Shown here: piece by piece, positions 14,772-22,823 of the stretch | Layout: each line of letters begins with the position of its first letter | How positions within the stretch are numbered: the stretch's first letter is position 1 | NCBI GenBank assembly: GCA_018829095.1 | Contig: JAHJUF010000240.1 | Location: 1 to 33,989, forward strand | Direction: 5' to 3' | Source of the DNA: Pseudomonadota bacterium | GTDB taxonomy: Bacteria; Desulfobacterota; Desulfobacteria; Desulfobacterales; Desulfatibacillaceae | DNA length: 33,989 nt | Translations under genes and position numbers: made by a program | Notes under the pieces: generated by a model | What the model saw: only the letters and a program-made list of their open reading frames with translations | Database searches by the model: none | What the model was told of the DNA's origin: nothing

Positions 14772-17399
14772 TTATTCGGGAACGGTTTCCTTGGCCAGGA
14801 CCGCGAGCTTCTTGGCCTGGACCTTGCGGTACACCTCTTTGGGGGACTTCTTTACCCCGTCCACGGTGAGGAGATCCCGCTCGATGTCGATGCCGAAAAG
14901 CTCCTGGTTGGTCTGAAGATAGGGCAGGATCAGCTCCCAGTCCTGGTCCGACATCTCCACGTACTCGCCGCCGTTGAGTTGCTCGTCAATGAGCTGGCAA
15001 TGGGGGTCCCGGGCAAAGATGGCTCCGCCCGAGGCCAGGGAGAAGAGGTTGGACCCCGGGTACGGCGTTTCCAGGGGCACCACCTTGCCCGAATCGTCGA
15101 ACCGCACCCCGTTCAAGACCACGAACCCGCCGCCATTGTGGGGGTCCCCGGCCATGAAGGATTCGGCCAGAAAGTCCAGGCAGGTTCCGTTGATGACCAC
15201 CCGGGGCCGGCCCACGGCATTGATGAAGGGCCTTCCCGCGCCGTTGCCCATGATGTAGATGTCTCCGCCCTTGGCCCCGTACATGAAGGCCTGGCCCACG
15301 TCCCCATAGACCACGAGCCTGCCGCTCTTGATGATCTGGCAGAGCTGATCCTGGGCGTTGCCGTGGATGCGGATTTCCATGCCGTCTATGCCCGAGGCCA
15401 GGTAGTCCCCTGAGCTTCCGTACAGGTCCATGCGCACGCCGTCCGTGCCCGGCCCGAATCCGCAGCCGTGGAACCGCTGGCCCTTCAGGCCGTAGACAAT
15501 GAACCGCCTCCATCCGAGATGAAAGGCCTTCACCGCCAGGCGGGCGTCGCAATCATCCCCCTCGGGCTCGAAATCCCGGGCAAGGACCACCAGAATCTTC
15601 TCCTCGCCCCGGGGCGCCCGGATTTGGTCCGCCGTGGCGAGATCAATGCGGACGAACCGGCCTTTGCCGCCCCCGGTGATGGAGGGGGTGGCGTCCAGGA
15701 TGCGATCCAGGCCGGTGCGGAGGATTTCGAGCACCGCGCTGGGACGCATGCCGCCGCAGTCGAAACGGCGGTCGTTCAACTGGGTCAGGAGTTCGATGGC
15801 CCCTTCCCGGGCGTCGTCCCCTGCCCCGGCCGCTTCAACCACCGTGTTCACCGCCCACTTGAGGTTGCCCAGGTTCCAGGAGGGGACGGCGGAAACCATC
15901 TTCTCGAACAGGGGCATGATCTGACCCGGGGCAAGACTTTTCGCCAAATCCCCCTGGAGAAGAGCTTTCCCATCCGCCGGAGCCTTGGGCTCGGCGGCGT
16001 GGACGTGGTATTCCCCCTCCGGGGTGGTGATGAGGCGGCCGAACTTGTCGGAGCAGGTGAGCTTGCAGCCGGTATCCTCCCGCTGGACCGTGAAACAGAA
16101 GGCCCCGCCGTCCGTGTGGCTGCCGCCCCGGGCGTTCCAGTAGCGGTCCGCCACCAGCCGGAACCGGGGGTCCTCCTCGTTCAGGGACCGGAGGGTGGCG
16201 TCAATGGCCTGTTTCTCGGAGCCCACCAGCCCGATGGTCACATCGCCCTCCTGAAGGGCAAAAACCTGGGGCCGCAGCATGGCCGTGTCCGTGATGCCCA
16301 GCAGGCGGTAGCGCCCCTGGTCCGGCCTGCTGCCCGCGATGATGAAGAACCACGGGCCGTCCGGCGACTTGGCCACATGGAGGCGCTGGACCGCGCGGTA
16401 GATCTCCTGTCGCTCCCCGGAGAGTTGGTCGAAATCCAGCTCCGAGGTGGGAGCCAGGGCCTCGATGACGCACTCCAGAGGGTACTTGTAGACCCGGGTC
16501 AGGAGGTCGAACAACAGGGCGGAAACCTCGGTGTCCGTGAGGAACTGGGGCATGATGCCGTGCTGTTTCAGGTACTCGGAAACCCCGTGGTAGTTGGCGA
16601 AGTCGCCGTTGTGCACCAGGGCCTCGTTCATGCCGATGAACGGGTGGGCGCCGGCCGGGTGCCAGACCCGGCCCTTGGTGGGGTAGCGCTGGTGGGCGAT
16701 CCAGACCTGGGCCTTGAAATCATCCAGCCCGTAGTACTGGACCACCTGCTCGGCGAAGCCCACGATCTTGAAGATGGCGAGGTCCCGGGCGTGGGACATG
16801 ACAAAGGCCCGTTGCTTGCCCAGGGAACTGTAGAAATGCTGGTTCAGCCGGAAGCTGTTCTGGTAGATGAACTCGTCCTCCACCTCCCGTTGAGGTGCAT
16901 TGGCGAATCCCTTTTCCTGAGCGAACTTTTCCAGCGCGTCCGGTTTCACCCGCACGAAATACTGGGCGAGGTCCGGCGGTTTCACTTCCAGGCCCAGATC
17001 CCGGAAATCCTTTCCCGGAGCCAGGACCCGCTTGTGGGCCACGTCCAGGAAGGGCTCGATGCACTGGGCTTCCACCTCGCCCAGGCATTGAGGATCGATG
17101 AGGGCCACCTGGAGCAGGTAATTGTTCTTCAGGGTGTCCGCGTCCACGCCCAGCTGCTCGGGACAGAGGCAGGCAGCCGCGATGCCGCCTCCCTTGCCGT
17201 TGCCCCGGTTGTGCATCTGGATGCTGGGTTCGAAAATATGGCGGCCGCGAACGGGCACGGAGGCTGCGAAGCCCACGACCCCGCAGCCGCCTTCCTCGGC
17301 GGATTTCCGGATGGGAGCGTTCCGGATGCCCAACTCCGTGAGGAGCGCCTTCCGGGATGCCAGGATCCGTCCGATCATGGAGTTTGGTTTGCCTGTCAT
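14772..17399 (-). CDS. glutamate synthase-type fusion: class II glutaminase domain plus GXGXG domain
   Basis: An 875-residue fusion of the parts called GltB1 and GltB3 in archaeal split glutamate synthase. The N-terminal glutaminase (class II amidotransferase) has Cys39 in GGCGVVGF; in this family that cysteine must become residue 1, so a 38-residue propeptide is expected. Further amidotransferase motifs are MHNRGNGKGGG, WIAHQRYPT and ALVHNGDF. The C-terminal GXGXG beta-helix (roughly 640-770: GMEIRIHGNAQDQ, GDVGQAFMYGAKGGDIYIMG) holds the domains together in GltB and passes ammonia. The FMN part is absent and is encoded just upstream. Start chosen at ATG 17399, seven bases after AAAGGA; the frame extends further but into the neighbouring gene. 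Last gene of the operon. It should release ammonia from glutamine, but the acceptor need not be 2-oxoglutarate. Confidence 0.88.
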   Translation of the reverse strand: MTGKPNSMIGRILASRKALLTELGIRNAPIRKSAEEGGCGVVGFAASVPVRGRHIFEPSIQMHNRGNGKGGGIAAACLCPEQLGVDADTLKNNYLLQVALIDPQCLGEVEAQCIEPFLDVAHKRVLAPGKDFRDLGLEVKPPDLAQYFVRVKPDALEKFAQEKGFANAPQREVEDEFIYQNSFRLNQHFYSSLGKQRAFVMSHARDLAIFKIVGFAEQVVQYYGLDDFKAQVWIAHQRYPTKGRVWHPAGAHPFIGMNEALVHNGDFANYHGVSEYLKQHGIMPQFLTDTEVSALLFDLLTRVYKYPLECVIEALAPTSELDFDQLSGERQEIYRAVQRLHVAKSPDGPWFFIIAGSRPDQGRYRLLGITDTAMLRPQVFALQEGDVTIGLVGSEKQAIDATLRSLNEEDPRFRLVADRYWNARGGSHTDGGAFCFTVQREDTGCKLTCSDKFGRLITTPEGEYHVHAAEPKAPADGKALLQGDLAKSLAPGQIMPLFEKMVSAVPSWNLGNLKWAVNTVVEAAGAGDDAREGAIELLTQLNDRRFDCGGMRPSAVLEILRTGLDRILDATPSITGGGKGRFVRIDLATADQIRAPRGEEKILVVLARDFEPEGDDCDARLAVKAFHLGWRRFIVYGLKGQRFHGCGFGPGTDGVRMDLYGSSGDYLASGIDGMEIRIHGNAQDQLCQIIKSGRLVVYGDVGQAFMYGAKGGDIYIMGNGAGRPFINAVGRPRVVINGTCLDFLAESFMAGDPHNGGGFVVLNGVRFDDSGKVVPLETPYPGSNLFSLASGGAIFARDPHCQLIDEQLNGGEYVEMSDQDWELILPYLQTNQELFGIDIERDLLTVDGVKKSPKEVYRKVQAKKLAVLAKETVPE

Positions 17400-17449
17400 G
17401 CGATTGTCCTTTGGTATGCCCTTGCCATGGCGTTGTCCGCCCTGGCCAT

Positions 17450-20377
17450 TCACGCGGATTCTCTCACGTAGTCGCGATGAGAAAGAAGATCGCTCCGCCC
17501 CACCAGTTCCTTGACGCTCTTCATGCCGAACCTCCAGAGGATCTCCTGGAGCTGAATGGCAAAGGAATGGTACAGGTTGATGAGCCGCTGGGACGCGTAG
17601 TCCAGGCCGTAGAGAAGCTCCAACTCCGGGTCCGTGGTGGCGATGCCCCGGGGGCATCCCCGGCCGGACTCGCAGGCCCCGCACCGGATGCACTCCAGGG
17701 CGATCATGTCCGCAGTCCCGATGACTACCCCGTCCGCGCCCAGGGCGATGGCCTTGGCAATGTCCCAGGCTGTGCGGATGCCGCCCGACGCGATGAGGGT
17801 GATGTGGTCCCGCACGCCCTCGGCCTTCAGGAACTCGTGCACCTTGGGGATGGCGTACTCGATGGGCATGGCGATGTTCTTCTTGGCGATGTCCGGAGCC
17901 GCGCCCGTGCCGCCGTAAGACCCGTCGATGTGCACGATGTGAGCCCCGGCGTAAAAGCTCCCCACAGCCACCATGTCCACGTCGTTGGGAGTGGAGACCT
18001 TCACCGACACCAGGGCCTTCGGGTTCACCATCTTGATCCAGTCCACATGCTTCTTGTGGTCCTCCACCGAGTACACGGAGTGGAAGGGGAAGGGCGAGAA
18101 CAGGGAGCTGCCCACCACCGCCTCCCGCATTTTTGCCACAGTGGGCGTCACCTTGTCGCCCAGAAGATGCCCTCCCAGCCCGGGCTTGGCGCCCTGGGCG
18201 TATTTGAACTCCACGATGCGCACCTGCTGGATGGTTTCTTCCCGGACGCCGAAAAGCCCCGTGGCCACCTGGGTAATGACATGGTCTTCATAGGGTTTCA
18301 GGACGTCGGGAAAACCACCCTCCCCCGTGCAGGTGAAGGAGTTGAACGCCTTGTAGGCCATGGCCCTTCCCTCGATGGCGGACAGGGAGACCGAGCCGAA
18401 GCTCATGCCGCCTCCGTAGATGGGAAAGCCGATGGTGATATCGGGCCGTCCGTCGTCGCCCCGGCGGTTCAGGGGGATGGAAAGATCCACGTCCTTGGGC
18501 GAAAACGACGGGTCCGGCGTATTTTCCGGGAACAGGAAGTCCATGCGGTCAAATCCGCCGCCCGACTTGCCCACGCGGTATTCCAGGCCGTTTTCCGGGG
18601 GACGCCCGGTTTCCGCCTGGAGCCAGGTGGCTGTGATGAGTTCCGCCGGCCAGCGGGGGTCGCCAAAGGTCTGCCAGGAGGGATCGCCTCCCACCGAAAT
18701 GGCGGCCTGGGGGCACTCGTCCCCGCAGTAGGTCCCCAGGTCCCGGCAATGGGCGGCTCCCCGGCACAGATGGGAGCGCGGAGCCAGCATGCGGCTCCCG
18801 GCCCGGACATGGACGCCGTACTGGCAAACCTCGGCGCACTTGCCGCAGGCGATGCAGGCGGACGAGCGGGTTACCCGGTACTTGCCGAACTGGTTCCGGA
18901 ACCTGGAGGGGCAAAGGGCGGACCCGCCTTCGTCCACCGGGTAGGACCAGTCGATGGAGGAAGCCGGATAATCCTTTTCCGCCGGAGCGGCGCTCTCCTT
19001 GCGCAGGCCGAAAACCGGGGAGAAGTGGTCCTTTTCCAGGTCCTCGAAGAACATGACCCGGCCCACTTCGCCCCGAAGCCTGCGGACTTCCCGGAGGCCC
19101 ATGGCGCCCATGACCTCGATGATCTGGGAATGCCACGCGCCCAGGAGGTTGACGATGCGCCCGCGGCCGTATTCCACGGGCAGGCTGTCGGACATGGCCG
19201 GGTCCTGGAACCCGTCCACCGGAGGATCTTCCAGGCGGCTCTCCAGAGCCACCCGGAGGACCGTATCCACACCCACGCAATCCGTTCCGCAGGCCACGAT
19301 CTTGGCCACGTGCTCAGCCATGCCGATGCCGCCGGTCGTCACCAGGGAGACTTCCTCCCGGAGGCCGGCATCCACCAGGGCCATGTGGATTTCCCGCAGG
19401 AGATGGGTGACGAACACGCCTTCCCTCTCCCCATATCCCCGGCCGTTGTTTTGGGCCTGGAGGTGGATGACCTCTGCGTTGGCCCCGGCCAGGGCCACGG
19501 CCCGTCCGGCCGCGTTTTCGTCCAACGGCAGATGAATGAAGGTGATGACATCCGGAGCCTTTTCCTTGATGCAGGAAATGGCGTCCGTGGCTGTTTCCGA
19601 CCAGGGGATAAGCACGGCCGGGGCTCCGGCGATCTCGTCCAGGGACGAGGAGGCGGGGTCAAAACGGACCACCAGGTGCTTCTGGAGATCGGAAAGAAGC
19701 CCCTTGGCATCCTCGTACTCGGCCACGGCAAGGGTGCCCAGATCCCTGGCGGCCAGGACTATGGCCCGCACAGCCGGATCGCCGAGGTATCGCCTGCCCG
19801 GGCTGTCCAGGATCAGGGGCAGGGGCAACTCGATGACCGGAGGCATTTCCACAGCCAGGCCGCCCTTTTCATCGAACGAGAGATGGTTGGGCTTTTTCCC
19901 CAGTTCGACAACCGTGCTGATATACTCCCGGCCGTGGATGCCGTCCCGGGTGGGCCGCACGATCTCGGACATGTCGGTCCACATCTGGTCAAAACCCGGG
20001 CCGCAGAAGGGGCCCCGGTATCCGGCCCCGGAAACGGGAATCTTGCCCGTGAAGGACATCTTCCAGATGCGCTCGAGGAGTTCGGGGATCCAGTAATCAT
20101 CCCCCATGGCCAGGTACCGGGGGTTCACCACCCGGCCGATGATGTTCTTTTTGCAGTCCTGGACGCAGCGCATGCAGCTGACGCACTCGGTGTCGCAGGT
20201 GTCCACCACCTGGGGGGCGTCGAACCTCCGGTGGTCGTATACGCGAAAAACGCACGAATCCCGCTTCACGCACTTCAGACACCCCAGGCACCCCTCGATC
20301 TCGATGGCGGTCAGCCTCGCGATGGGTTGGAACCTGGGGGGAGCGGGGTTCGTGTGGATATGGTATTTCTTTGGCAT
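17450..20377 (-). CDS. glutamate synthase-like FMN flavoprotein with duplicated barrel and several FeS regions
   Basis: A 975-residue protein. Residues 30-77 hold ferredoxin-like cysteine clusters (CLGCLKC...C, then CDTECVSCMRCVQDC). Residues about 140-385 are a first barrel copy; residues 508-555 a second cysteine-rich block starting ACIACGKCAEVC; residues about 640-955 the canonical glutamate synthase FMN domain with CTGEGG (683-688), QGAKPGLGG (728-736) and the FeS-type cysteines Cys896, 899, 902 and 908. The first copy ends LVTTGGIGMAEHVAKIVACG, matching LIASGGIRTAWDIAKAIALG of the second, but lacks the GAKPG and CTGEGG motifs, so it is probably catalytically dead. ATG 20377 has GGTGAG upstream. 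It lies 26 bases after metF and 50 bases before the glutaminase gene. Reaction: most simply glutamate synthase; the electron donor is unclear as no GltD is present. Confidence 0.87.
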   Translation of the reverse strand: MPKKYHIHTNPAPPRFQPIARLTAIEIEGCLGCLKCVKRDSCVFRVYDHRRFDAPQVVDTCDTECVSCMRCVQDCKKNIIGRVVNPRYLAMGDDYWIPELLERIWKMSFTGKIPVSGAGYRGPFCGPGFDQMWTDMSEIVRPTRDGIHGREYISTVVELGKKPNHLSFDEKGGLAVEMPPVIELPLPLILDSPGRRYLGDPAVRAIVLAARDLGTLAVAEYEDAKGLLSDLQKHLVVRFDPASSSLDEIAGAPAVLIPWSETATDAISCIKEKAPDVITFIHLPLDENAAGRAVALAGANAEVIHLQAQNNGRGYGEREGVFVTHLLREIHMALVDAGLREEVSLVTTGGIGMAEHVAKIVACGTDCVGVDTVLRVALESRLEDPPVDGFQDPAMSDSLPVEYGRGRIVNLLGAWHSQIIEVMGAMGLREVRRLRGEVGRVMFFEDLEKDHFSPVFGLRKESAAPAEKDYPASSIDWSYPVDEGGSALCPSRFRNQFGKYRVTRSSACIACGKCAEVCQYGVHVRAGSRMLAPRSHLCRGAAHCRDLGTYCGDECPQAAISVGGDPSWQTFGDPRWPAELITATWLQAETGRPPENGLEYRVGKSGGGFDRMDFLFPENTPDPSFSPKDVDLSIPLNRRGDDGRPDITIGFPIYGGGMSFGSVSLSAIEGRAMAYKAFNSFTCTGEGGFPDVLKPYEDHVITQVATGLFGVREETIQQVRIVEFKYAQGAKPGLGGHLLGDKVTPTVAKMREAVVGSSLFSPFPFHSVYSVEDHKKHVDWIKMVNPKALVSVKVSTPNDVDMVAVGSFYAGAHIVHIDGSYGGTGAAPDIAKKNIAMPIEYAIPKVHEFLKAEGVRDHITLIASGGIRTAWDIAKAIALGADGVVIGTADMIALECIRCGACESGRGCPRGIATTDPELELLYGLDYASQRLINLYHSFAIQLQEILWRFGMKSVKELVGRSDLLSHRDYVRESA

Positions 20378-20403
20378 GACGGCTCACCCGTTCCTTGCTT
20401 GGA

Positions 20404-21348
20404 TCAATCCACCGCCGGCCGCGGCAGGAGTCCCGCATCCCGAATGAGGTCCGGGAGCAGGTGCTCGGCCTCGATGGCCTGGAGATGCACGCCCTTGATG
20501 CCGGGAATCGCCCGGACGCCCTCGATGAGCTCCAAAAATATCTGGCGGCCCTCCTTGGCGGGGTCCTTGGACTTTTCCATGCGCTGGATCATGGCATCCG
20601 GCACCACCACGCCGGGCACGCTCCGGTTCATGTACTTCAACATGCCCGCCGAGCGCGGCAAAATGATGCCGCCCAGGATGGCGGTCTTTTCCGTGAGACC
20701 CATGTCCACGGCCCGGGCCATGGCTTCGGCAAAGGCGGCCACATCGTAGATGGCCTGGGTCTGGATGAAGTCCGCGCCCGCAGCCACCTTTTTGGCCAGG
20801 CGATGCACCCGGAACTCCCGGGGGGGAGCCAACGGCGTCCAGGCGGCACCGATGAAGAAGGGAGTGGGCGCGTCGATGGAATCGCCCGAGTCCTGCACCG
20901 CCTCGTCCCGCATGCCCCGGACCACGGAAATCAGCTGGATGGAGTCGATGTCAAAGACGTTCTTGGCTCCGGGATGGCCTTTCAGCTTGCCTCCGGCCGA
21001 AGCCTTCTGGTGGTCTCCGGACAGGCAGAGAATGTTTTTCAGGCCCAGGGCCGAGGCTCCCAGGAGGTCGGACTGCATGGCAATGCGGTTCCGGTCCCGG
21101 CAAACCATCTGCATGAGGGGTTCGAGCCCCTGGTCCAGGAGGATTCTGGAGGCGGCGATGGAAGACATGCGCACCACGGCGGTCTGATTATCCGTGATAT
21201 TGTAGGCGTCGGCAACGCCTTTCAATATCTTCGCCTTTTCCACGATGACATCGGCGTTGGGTCCCCGGGGGGGGCCGATTTCCGCCGTGACGGCGAACCG
21301 GCCGGATGCCAGAACCTTTTCGAGACGAGAGCCAGCTTTCCTGTTCAT
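20404..21348 (-). CDS. metF: methylenetetrahydrofolate reductase
   Basis: A flavin-dependent enzyme interconverting methylene- and methyl-tetrahydrofolate, the last folate step of the Wood-Ljungdahl methyl branch. At 314 residues it is the single-domain bacterial form. The N-terminal TAEIGPP (21-27) carries the expected catalytic Glu23, and YNITDNQTAVVRMSS (49-63) is typical of MetF from anaerobes. LCLSGDH and GADFIQTQAIYDV follow as in the TIM-barrel family. Its ATG overlaps the metV stop (ATGA, 21345-21348), proving translational coupling. MetF proteins paired with MetV draw electrons through MetV's FeS clusters rather than from NADH alone. The direction (methyl formation or oxidation) cannot be read from the sequence. 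Confidence 0.94.
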   Translation of the reverse strand: MNRKAGSRLEKVLASGRFAVTAEIGPPRGPNADVIVEKAKILKGVADAYNITDNQTAVVRMSSIAASRILLDQGLEPLMQMVCRDRNRIAMQSDLLGASALGLKNILCLSGDHQKASAGGKLKGHPGAKNVFDIDSIQLISVVRGMRDEAVQDSGDSIDAPTPFFIGAAWTPLAPPREFRVHRLAKKVAAGADFIQTQAIYDVAAFAEAMARAVDMGLTEKTAILGGIILPRSAGMLKYMNRSVPGVVVPDAMIQRMEKSKDPAKEGRQIFLELIEGVRAIPGIKGVHLQAIEAEHLLPDLIRDAGLLPRPAVD

Positions 21349-22016
21349 GTCCGCAAATCCTCCCTGACCACACGCTTCTGGCCACCGTGACGCGAATTGG
21401 ACCAGTTCTTGGTGCCCTGGAACCGCAGGAGCTCATCCACCTTGCCCCGGGCCTGGGCGCGCTCGAAGATCTTCAGCCAGATGCAGGGGACCTCCGCGTT
21501 GACCTCGCAGGCGCCGTTCTCCCGGGTGCCGCCGCAGGGGCCGTTCATGAGGCTCTTGGCGCAACGGGCCACGGGGCAAAGCCCGAAAGTTTCGCCCAGG
21601 ACGCAGGCCCCGCAGGCCTCGCACCGCACCCCCCAGACCCCCGGTTCCTCCCGGATGGCCAGGGAGGTGGTGTTGACGCCCGGATACACAGGGGTGTCCT
21701 CAAAGATCTCGGCCAGGCACTGGATGCCGATGCCGCAGGCGAGGCTCACCACCGCGTCGACCCCGATGAGCTTGGCGGCCAGGGGCTCCACGAACTCGGG
21801 CTCGCATTGGCGCTCCAGGGTGGCGGTGACCACCTCGATGGAGTTGCCTTCCTTTTCCATGGCCATGCGGAGCAAGGGCGCGAGGGTTTCCACTTCGCGC
21901 TCACCCCCCGCAGCGCACTCGGCCACGCAGGTGGCGCAGCCCGCCACCAGGACCTTCTTGTGGCCCTTGAGCTTTTCCACGATTTCAGAAATGGGTTTCC
22001 ATTCCGCGATGATCAT
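21345..22016 (-). CDS. metV: MetV-type zinc/FeS partner of methylenetetrahydrofolate reductase
   Basis: A 223-residue MTHFR_C-domain protein (MetV). It has many cysteines in two groups: CATCVAEC at 27-34, and a dense block CEACGACVLGETFGLCPVARC running to NGPCGGTRENGACEV near 139-182. The latter is the region that in MetV binds FeS clusters and zinc; LMNGPCGG is its most recognisable string. It forms the small subunit of the MetFV heterodimer and relays electrons to the flavin in MetF. The ATG at 22016 follows the mvhD-like TAG with no base between. Together with metF it defines the operon's core. Confidence 0.88.
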   Translation of the reverse strand: MIIAEWKPISEIVEKLKGHKKVLVAGCATCVAECAAGGEREVETLAPLLRMAMEKEGNSIEVVTATLERQCEPEFVEPLAAKLIGVDAVVSLACGIGIQCLAEIFEDTPVYPGVNTTSLAIREEPGVWGVRCEACGACVLGETFGLCPVARCAKSLMNGPCGGTRENGACEVNAEVPCIWLKIFERAQARGKVDELLRFQGTKNWSNSRHGGQKRVVREDLRT

Positions 22017-22436
22017 CTATTTCCTCCTCCTCAAGGGATTGGCTCCCAAAGGTTCCACGGCCCGGCCCCGGCTGTTCCCCAGTTCGGCCAGGGCCTCGGC
22101 TGAAAGCTTTGCGCCTCGGGCCAGGGCCAGCCGTTCGGCCCCCATGCCCACGGTCTCGAGCAGGCCCCGGGCGTAGTTGATTCTCTTTTCCGCGCGCGTG
22201 TTGCCCACCATGAACCGGCAGGCGTGTTCCGGACAGGCCACCACCAGGACCCCGTCGGCCCCATCCTCCAGGACCCGCATGATGTGGGGCACCTCCACCT
22301 TGCTGGAACAGGGCAGGGCCACCATTCGAAGGACGCAATTCCTGGCCAGACCCGCCGCCCGGGCCAAGTCCGTGGCCGGGTCCACGCTCTGTCTGCAAAA
22401 AAGGATCATGATTTCCGGTTGGAAGTTTTCACTCAT
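22017..22436 (-). CDS. MvhD/HdrA-associated FeS protein (hydrogenase iron-sulfur subunit family)
   Basis: A 139-residue MvhD-family protein. In methanogens and acetogens MvhD bears a [2Fe-2S] cluster and links hydrogenase or formate dehydrogenase to the bifurcating HdrA; in Moorella an MvhD occurs with MetFV and HdrABC. Here the cysteines are C14, C34, C43, C68 and C73. The motif ACPEHACRFMVGN (67-79) corresponds to GCHPGDCHYxxGN, but the FCxWC pair at the N-terminus has lost its second cysteine (FCRQS). Cluster binding by C14/C43/C68/C73 remains possible. The frame extends to 22541 through the leader hairpin; ATG 22436, after GGGAGG, is the natural start. First gene of the operon. No HdrA gene is nearby, so its partner is unknown. 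Confidence 0.8.
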   Translation of the reverse strand: MSENFQPEIMILFCRQSVDPATDLARAAGLARNCVLRMVALPCSSKVEVPHIMRVLEDGADGVLVVACPEHACRFMVGNTRAEKRINYARGLLETVGMGAERLALARGAKLSAEALAELGNSRGRAVEPLGANPLRRRK

Positions 22437-22470
22437 TTTGCTCTTTTGCCTCCCTGGAAACTTTCTCGTC

Positions 22471-22499
22471 TTTTTGGCTCCCCGCAGCAAAGCCAAAAA
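22471..22499 (-). promoter_or_regulatory. possible antiterminator hairpin in the metF operon leader
   Basis: TTTTTGGCT and AGCCAAAAA pair perfectly (9 bp) around an 11-base loop. On the minus strand the first arm consists of the T tract of the terminator-like hairpin just upstream, so the two structures cannot be complete at the same time. Confidence 0.45.
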
Positions 22500-22539
22500 A
22501 AAAGGGGCCCCCATCTCCGCCTTGGAGATGATGAGCCCC
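22495..22539 (-). terminator. terminator-like hairpin in the leader of the metF operon (attenuator candidate)
   Basis: Minus strand: outer arms GGGGC (22539-22535) and GCCCC (22508-22504), inner arms CATCTCC/GGAGATG (perfect, 5-base loop), then nine T (22503-22495). This has all marks of an intrinsic terminator, yet it lies between the promoter candidate and the first gene. It must be bypassed for the operon to be expressed, or end a very short leader RNA. Confidence 0.7.
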
Positions 22540-22564
22540 AAACGCCATTGTTTGAGTCAGCACA

Positions 22565-22596
22565 ATTATATTAAGGACATTATCCTGTTTTGCCAA
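22565..22596 (-). promoter_or_regulatory. promoter of the mvhD-metVF-glutamate synthase operon
   Basis: Minus strand: TTGGCA (5/6), a 17-base spacer, then TAATAT, immediately overlapping a perfect TATAAT three bases further on (20-base spacer). The predicted start is near 22560, only about 20 bases before the terminator-like hairpin. Confidence 0.5.
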
Positions 22597-22823
22597 GAGG
22601 AAAAAAACGGCCAGGATGAAATTTTTTTCAATAACTTGCGAGACCTTTTGTTAAGTTGTACTGAATTCTGAATGCCGCTCATCACTCTTCCACCCCTCTC
22701 ACCGCGCATTTTCCTCGCATGGCTTGATTTGGAGCCAGAAAAATGGTTGCCTATCCACTTGCCCGGGATTTTGCAGCAAAAAGCCGTCCATCCCGCCAGA
22801 CCCCTGTTTCCGGAAGGAGAGCC

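Follow-up and report, generated by a model that had tools for sequence, protein, structure and literature searches.

What could join a methyl-branch reductase, an MvhD-type electron-transfer protein and a glutamate synthase in a single run of genes? The question is raised by a cluster in a 33,989-nucleotide stretch of the genome assembly of an uncultured Desulfatibacillaceae bacterium (Desulfobacterota; this whole stretch is called the window here), which an earlier sequence-only reading had suggested could be either a new type of methylene-tetrahydrofolate (methylene-THF) reductase complex or a link between one-carbon and nitrogen metabolism. Our analysis indicates that the cluster is real and widely conserved, and that it probably encodes a glutamate synthase (GltS) with a new electron-input module.

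Organization of the Cluster

MvhD, MetV, MetF, P0004 and P0005 lie in a row on the minus strand from position 22436 to 14772 (Table 1), and the translations of the open reading frames (ORFs), with Pfam support for each protein, bear out the identities originally assigned to these five consecutive genes. Read from the sequence, the stop codon of MvhD abuts the ATG of MetV with 0 bases between them and MetV overlaps MetF in an ATGA, the same junctions that had been described, and the spacing is 26 bp between MetF and P0004 and about 50 bp between P0004 and P0005. As inferred from the alignment, the likeliest start of MvhD is the ATG at 22436 in place of the listed TTG at 22541; the start of P0005 was corrected from the listed GTG at 17693 to the ATG at 17399 or 17375. 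The complete set of glutamate synthase domains that had been claimed is present, glutaminase, FMN and GXGXG domains each being matched by Pfam, and P0004 (975 aa) gives a weak Fer4 match in addition.

Table 1. Positions of the cluster genes in the window and of a fused relative in two other loci.
Feature	Coordinates	Strand	Pfam match or domain content
MvhD-like [2Fe-2S]-type protein, cassette subfamily, 139 aa	22017..22436	-	FlpD 6e-25
MetV, 223 aa	21345..22016	-	PF12225 3e-31
MetF, 314 aa, cassette-specific paralogue	20404..21348	-	PF02219 (MTHFR) 9e-33
P0004 N-half (labelled GlnN; not glutamine synthetase)	18968..20377	-	FeS domain (8 Cys) + degenerate FMN-barrel paralogue of C-half
P0004 C-half (GluC), glutamate synthase FMN/[3Fe-4S] domain + N-terminal FeS domain	17450..18937	-	Glu_synthase 5e-100
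P0005 (GatG), class II glutaminase + GXGXG, about 870 aa	14772..17399	-	GATase_6 3e-6, GXGXG (PF01493) 3e-10
2,528-aa fusion	L203:3969-11552; L204:324-7907	-; +	

HdrA and GltD had been noted as absent beside the cluster, and indeed Pfam and profile scans detected neither HdrA, HdrB or HdrC nor GltD in the cluster or in the neighbouring window ORFs scanned, which include a metallo-beta-lactamase-fold protein, a PLD-like protein and an FAD oxidoreductase. Among the five proteins no Pfam domain of an FrhB-type subunit was found. None of GlnA, AmtB, PII, GlnD and NrpR adjoins the cluster in the neighbours scanned, and the region upstream of it holds no NrpR operator (GGAA-N6-TTCC) or sigma-54 promoter pattern above chance.

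The same genome carries an HdrA-MvhD-MetV-MetF set on another contig (C386; locus L127). Sets of this type have a further MetF-like gene, of about 290 aa and highly divergent, upstream of HdrA (L127:6143-7009, L129:12178-13041, L130:13337-14197, L137:13250-14107). A supply of GltD from elsewhere in the genome was considered and rejected, since in this assembly, which is about 87% complete, the sole match over the cut-off for the GltD-like family TIGR01316, and the only close homologue, is NfnB, encoded beside NfnA and rnf genes (L207).

P0004 and P0005 Form a Glutamate Synthase-Like Core

P0004 was found to be a fusion of two paralogous halves, which most relatives of the order encode as two individual genes. 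With hhalign, the N-half aligns to the C-half over 413 columns (probability 100, E 7.5e-71), but a stretch of about 44 columns surrounding the substrate loop (KPG) is absent from it. Each half contains an FeS domain of ferredoxin-like type in which eight Cys are nearly invariant; the 8 Cys of the N-half are kept in 139-140 of 140 rows, and the 8+4 Cys of the C-half in 140-141 of 141. Alignment of the C-half to GltS of the A. brasilense/B. subtilis type gave E values down to 2e-54, and its FeS Cys match those of 2vdc and 1ea0. The synthase loop reads KPGLGGHLLG, as opposed to KPGEGGQLPG, and the substrate or product could, judging from this motif, be a different one.

An AlphaFold2 model of P0004 (mean pLDDT 82, pTM 0.84) found glutamate synthases as its best PDB matches in Foldseek (1ofd, E 6.6e-29; 1ea0, 1.6e-26), and the whole model could be aligned to GltS over about 950 columns. 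By profile, the N-half matches the FMN barrel (E 1.8e-9) better than the central domain that lies between glutaminase and FMN domain in GltS (E 0.002), and in view of the structural alignment it may or may not correspond to that canonical central domain. We regard it as a candidate electron-entry domain. In P0005 the catalytic glutaminase Cys is invariant (119/119 GatG rows) and is preceded by a GltS-like N-terminal extension, with R, HNG and TDTE motifs visible in the sequence.

Features of MvhD, MetV and MetF in the Cassette

Four Cys are kept in all 99 rows of cassette MvhD. Only 19 of these 99 rows have the second Cys of the HdrA-type CxxC, for which the window has Ser, and the SY-ADLAG motif that follows it is lost, whereas CxxC-SY-ADLAG is kept in 7/8 rows of other MvhD, a small comparison group in which two rows are the same gene. 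Loss of the HdrA-type motif points to the synthase, rather than HdrA, as the docking partner of cassette MvhD.

The conserved Cys of MetV, a protein for which sequence comparison revealed no credible relative in the PDB, are kept alike in cassette and other MetV (nearly all 72/72). Cassette MetF retains Glu (61/63), Asp (58/63) and Gln (60/63), residues whose catalytic roles we take to be those of E. coli MetF. In the tree, window MetF falls into a 24-row cassette clade (support 100/99), and the HdrA-linked MetF of the same genome is placed in a different clade together with other HdrA-linked MetF. Distances of MetV correlate with those of the synthase to much the same degree (Mantel r 0.87, n=63) as the two synthase halves do with each other (r 0.87), and those of MetF do so with r 0.71 (n=55), values that none of 2000 permutations reached for either protein, shared host descent contributing to these correlations and being only partly corrected. 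Two Verrucomicrobiota genomes (G301, G304) have both a classical and a cassette MetF and no CdhC match, which implies that cassette MetF is not simply their enzyme of methionine or acetyl-CoA (Wood-Ljungdahl) synthesis.

Window MetF is closest to that of G053 and to a multi-phylum clade, and two members of the window's own family (G005 and G008; L036, L043) have an MvhD-core arrangement without MetVF directly upstream. This affinity and the differing arrangement suggest horizontal transfer of the cassette.

The Gene Order Is Conserved and the Upstream Module Is Exchangeable

The specific core was found in 14 of 59 genomes of the window's order, and 11 genomes other than that of the window share the gene order MvhD-MetV-MetF-N-half-C-half-GatG. 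Eight have it complete, with the halves fused as in the window in G053 and split in G022, G011, G044, G045, G054, G025 and G014, and three have it in pieces at contig ends (G058, G024, G027). That G053, a less fragmented assembly, carries the same fused cassette argues against an artefact. The linkage is more than chance, the order recurring in these 11 genomes whereas two canonical glutamate synthase loci show no MvhD, MetV or MetF within about 8-9 kb. The 80 named loci include Desulfarculaceae, Planctomycetota, Verrucomicrobiota, Fibrobacterota, Myxococcota, Spirochaetota, Dehalococcoidia and Syntrophaceae. The genes thus do not separate freely across genomes, and the expectation that the same order would recur elsewhere was confirmed in the 11 genomes and in many metagenome-assembled genomes; the expectation that HdrA would be missing there too held for most cassette copies, but not for at least six loci in which HdrA adjoins the cassette (L159, L162, L163, L172, L193, L200). 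Several of the clusters with adjacent HdrA also carry a second, canonical MvhD. In G005, the MvhD-synthase and HdrA-MvhD-MetV-MetF sets are distinct and near each other.

In an even sample of 247 genomes of Desulfobacterota (completeness of 90% or more, plus the genome of the window), the N-half and core were present in 59. Upstream of the core in 58 loci (56 from this sample, the other 2 from a family whose core is fused), automatic and therefore approximate classing gave MvhD-MetV-MetF in 22, MetV-MetF at a contig end in 3, other MetF arrangements in 3, MvhD-MetV without MetF in 6, MvhD only in 14, HdrA-MvhD-MetV-MetF-MvhD in 2 and a GlcD-type FAD/FeS dehydrogenase in 6, with 2 left unclassed by the script. 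MetVF is directly upstream in about 45% of the core loci examined, and the core is constant while the gene just upstream varies.

In one Desulfobacterota family (f58; L203 and L204), a single 2,528-aa chain joins a GlcD-type FAD/FeS dehydrogenase to both barrel halves and the glutaminase/GXGXG protein GatG. This fusion marks the upstream slot as that of an electron-input subunit, and by position MvhD-MetVF is the equivalent of the GlcD-type module. The GlcD-type module of Syntrophaceae and Dehalococcoidia (L099:6554-8401) has FAD_binding_4, FAD-oxidase_C and Fer4 domains, and among solved structures the chain closest to it is LctD, which belongs to the ferredoxin-dependent (bifurcating) lactate dehydrogenase.

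Nitrogen Context and Near-Exclusion of Canonical Glutamate Synthase

Pfam searches of the neighbours in relatives revealed glutamine synthetases I and III, an ammonium transporter (AmtB), PII, GlnD, NrpR, sigma-54 regulators and glutamate dehydrogenase, and at least one of GlnA, AmtB, PII, GlnD and NrpR was present in 33 of 58 sampled loci. Canonical GltS, scored at E < 1e-40 for the short type and E < 1e-80 for long GltB, was found in 9/59 core-bearing and 150/188 other genomes (odds ratio 0.046, Fisher p 3e-19) and, within 11 mixed families, in 4/27 core-bearing and 26/31 other genomes (p 1.8e-7); incomplete assemblies and shared, partly corrected ancestry make the exact values less certain but leave the direction unaffected. 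Mainly because canonical GltS is largely excluded, and also in view of the nitrogen-assimilation loci, the core is probably the cell's glutamate synthase.

Several core loci encode, near glutamine synthetase, a second and different protein of 520-560 aa with a partial Glu_synthase domain (L097:1860-3545; cluster C8 in L106, L126, L155, L157, L158 and L161).

A Proposed Electron Path and Its Alternatives

We propose that the products of the cluster make up a single redox complex that serves nitrogen assimilation, a glutamate synthase in which an MvhD-centred input module replaces the NADPH-oxidising GltD and MetVF is the likely donor, a reading to which we assign a probability of about 0.5. In such a complex, with glutamate as the presumed product, P0005 would free ammonia from glutamine, and the C-half of P0004 would add it to 2-oxoglutarate and, by means of FMN and FeS clusters, reduce the imine. 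The N-half, a paralogue without the substrate loop and with two FeS motifs, would accept electrons from MvhD, and their most likely source would be MetV-MetF, which would oxidise 5-methyl-THF to methylene-THF. The methylene/methyl-THF couple has an E0' of about -200 mV (PMC8760232). For the reductive amination of 2-oxoglutarate to glutamate the potential is near -0.12 V, so that methyl-THF can drive this step, whereas it is unable to reduce NAD+ unaided. A potential near -0.2 V also applies to 2-hydroxy acids, which probably serve the GlcD-type module as donors. More tentatively, MetVF oxidation of 5-methyl-THF might directly drive this reaction via MvhD, making the enzyme a methyl-THF:glutamate synthase and one of a wider family with plug-in donors (MetVF, MvhD alone or a GlcD-type dehydrogenase) of intermediate potential instead of NADPH or ferredoxin, a common theme that would fit energy-limited anaerobes. 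Several points count against the proposal. MetF is dispensable, 6/58 loci having MetV only and 14/58 MvhD only, and work on MetVF has mostly dealt with the reductive reaction. HdrA stands next to the cassette in some genomes, the window's own copy has none of the nitrogen genes beside it, and the altered KPG loop leaves room for another substrate or product.

Electrons might also flow the opposite way, a low-potential donor (reduced ferredoxin or other) feeding into the synthase through its FeS domains and part of the electrons passing via MvhD and MetV to MetF for the reduction of methylene-THF, which would be a new type of methylene-THF reductase (MTHFR) coupled to glutamate synthesis. The several FeS clusters of P0004 are consistent with this scheme, and characterised MetVF enzymes are considered to work as reductases, with reduced ferredoxin or NADH as the donor (PMC8760232). 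We nevertheless regard it as unlikely: MvhD-synthase cassettes without MetVF are common, so that MvhD serves the synthase and not MetF alone, the GlcD-type module that can fill the slot instead is a dehydrogenase and hence an electron donor, and organisms with classical MetF still keep the cassette. The synthase core being constant and MetV and MetF variable, the evidence favours a glutamate synthase with exchanged input over the methylene-THF reductase complex suggested earlier.

It is rather improbable, too, that MvhD relays electrons to the synthase from a separate, NADH-oxidising or bifurcating HdrA, with MetVF in the same hub as in Moorella. The HdrA genes adjoining some cassettes and the HdrA-MvhD-MetV-MetF set of the window's own genome would suit such a supply in trans, but most cassettes are without HdrA, several of the HdrA-adjacent clusters have their own canonical MvhD, and cassette MvhD has lost the motif that HdrA-linked MvhD keeps. 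A similarly small probability attaches to an operon that merely balances one-carbon and nitrogen metabolism by shared regulation, MetVF and the synthase being connected neither physically nor by electron transfer. Some genomes, e.g., G005, do separate the two sets; the tight junctions, the co-variation of MetV with the synthase, the cassette-specific MvhD subfamily, the dedicated MetF clades and the donor-type module fused in the same slot all argue against it. Of the two possibilities raised by the sequence-only reading, it is the link between carbon and nitrogen metabolism that emerges as the best reading.

Comparison With Known Systems

Glutamate synthase is one of the main routes by which nitrogen enters metabolism; NAD(P)H and ferredoxin are known to serve it as donors, and F420H2 has been proposed as another. 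If our proposal is true, energy-limited sulfate reducers and syntrophs would spare low-potential electrons by using a donor of about -200 mV, and nitrogen assimilation would be tied to the methyl branch of one-carbon metabolism. This conserved link is apparently undescribed so far, no description of a MetVF-linked glutamate synthase having been found among open-licence PMC papers. An earlier survey assumed HdrABC, and thus a bifurcating MTHFR, in genomes with MetF-MetV-MvhD (PMC6085437); for annotation, it should be kept in mind that many such sets sit with glutamate synthase, not with HdrABC.

Like GltB and ferredoxin-GltS (PDB 1ea0, 1ofd, 6s6s), the cluster combines a class II glutaminase, an FMN/[3Fe-4S] synthase domain and GXGXG, but it splits these domains over P0004 and P0005, and P0004 has extra ferredoxin-like FeS domains. 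Unlike GltBD, it is without GltD and has MvhD-MetVF upstream instead, the GltD-like flavoprotein of the genome, of the NfnAB/GltD family, being the NfnB on the L207 contig, outside the cluster. An exchanged GltS input subunit has a precedent in the F420-dependent, FrhB-linked glutamate synthase of methanogens and ANME (PMC9012536), whose input is an FrhB-type F420 protein, of which none was seen in this cluster. With the type IV MTHFR of Moorella (HdrCBA-MvhD-MetVF; PMC8760232) the cluster shares MvhD, MetV and MetF with their conserved Cys and active-site residues; unlike that system, it has no HdrA, HdrB or HdrC, its MvhD is without the HdrA-type motif, and a glutamate synthase stands in the place of Hdr.
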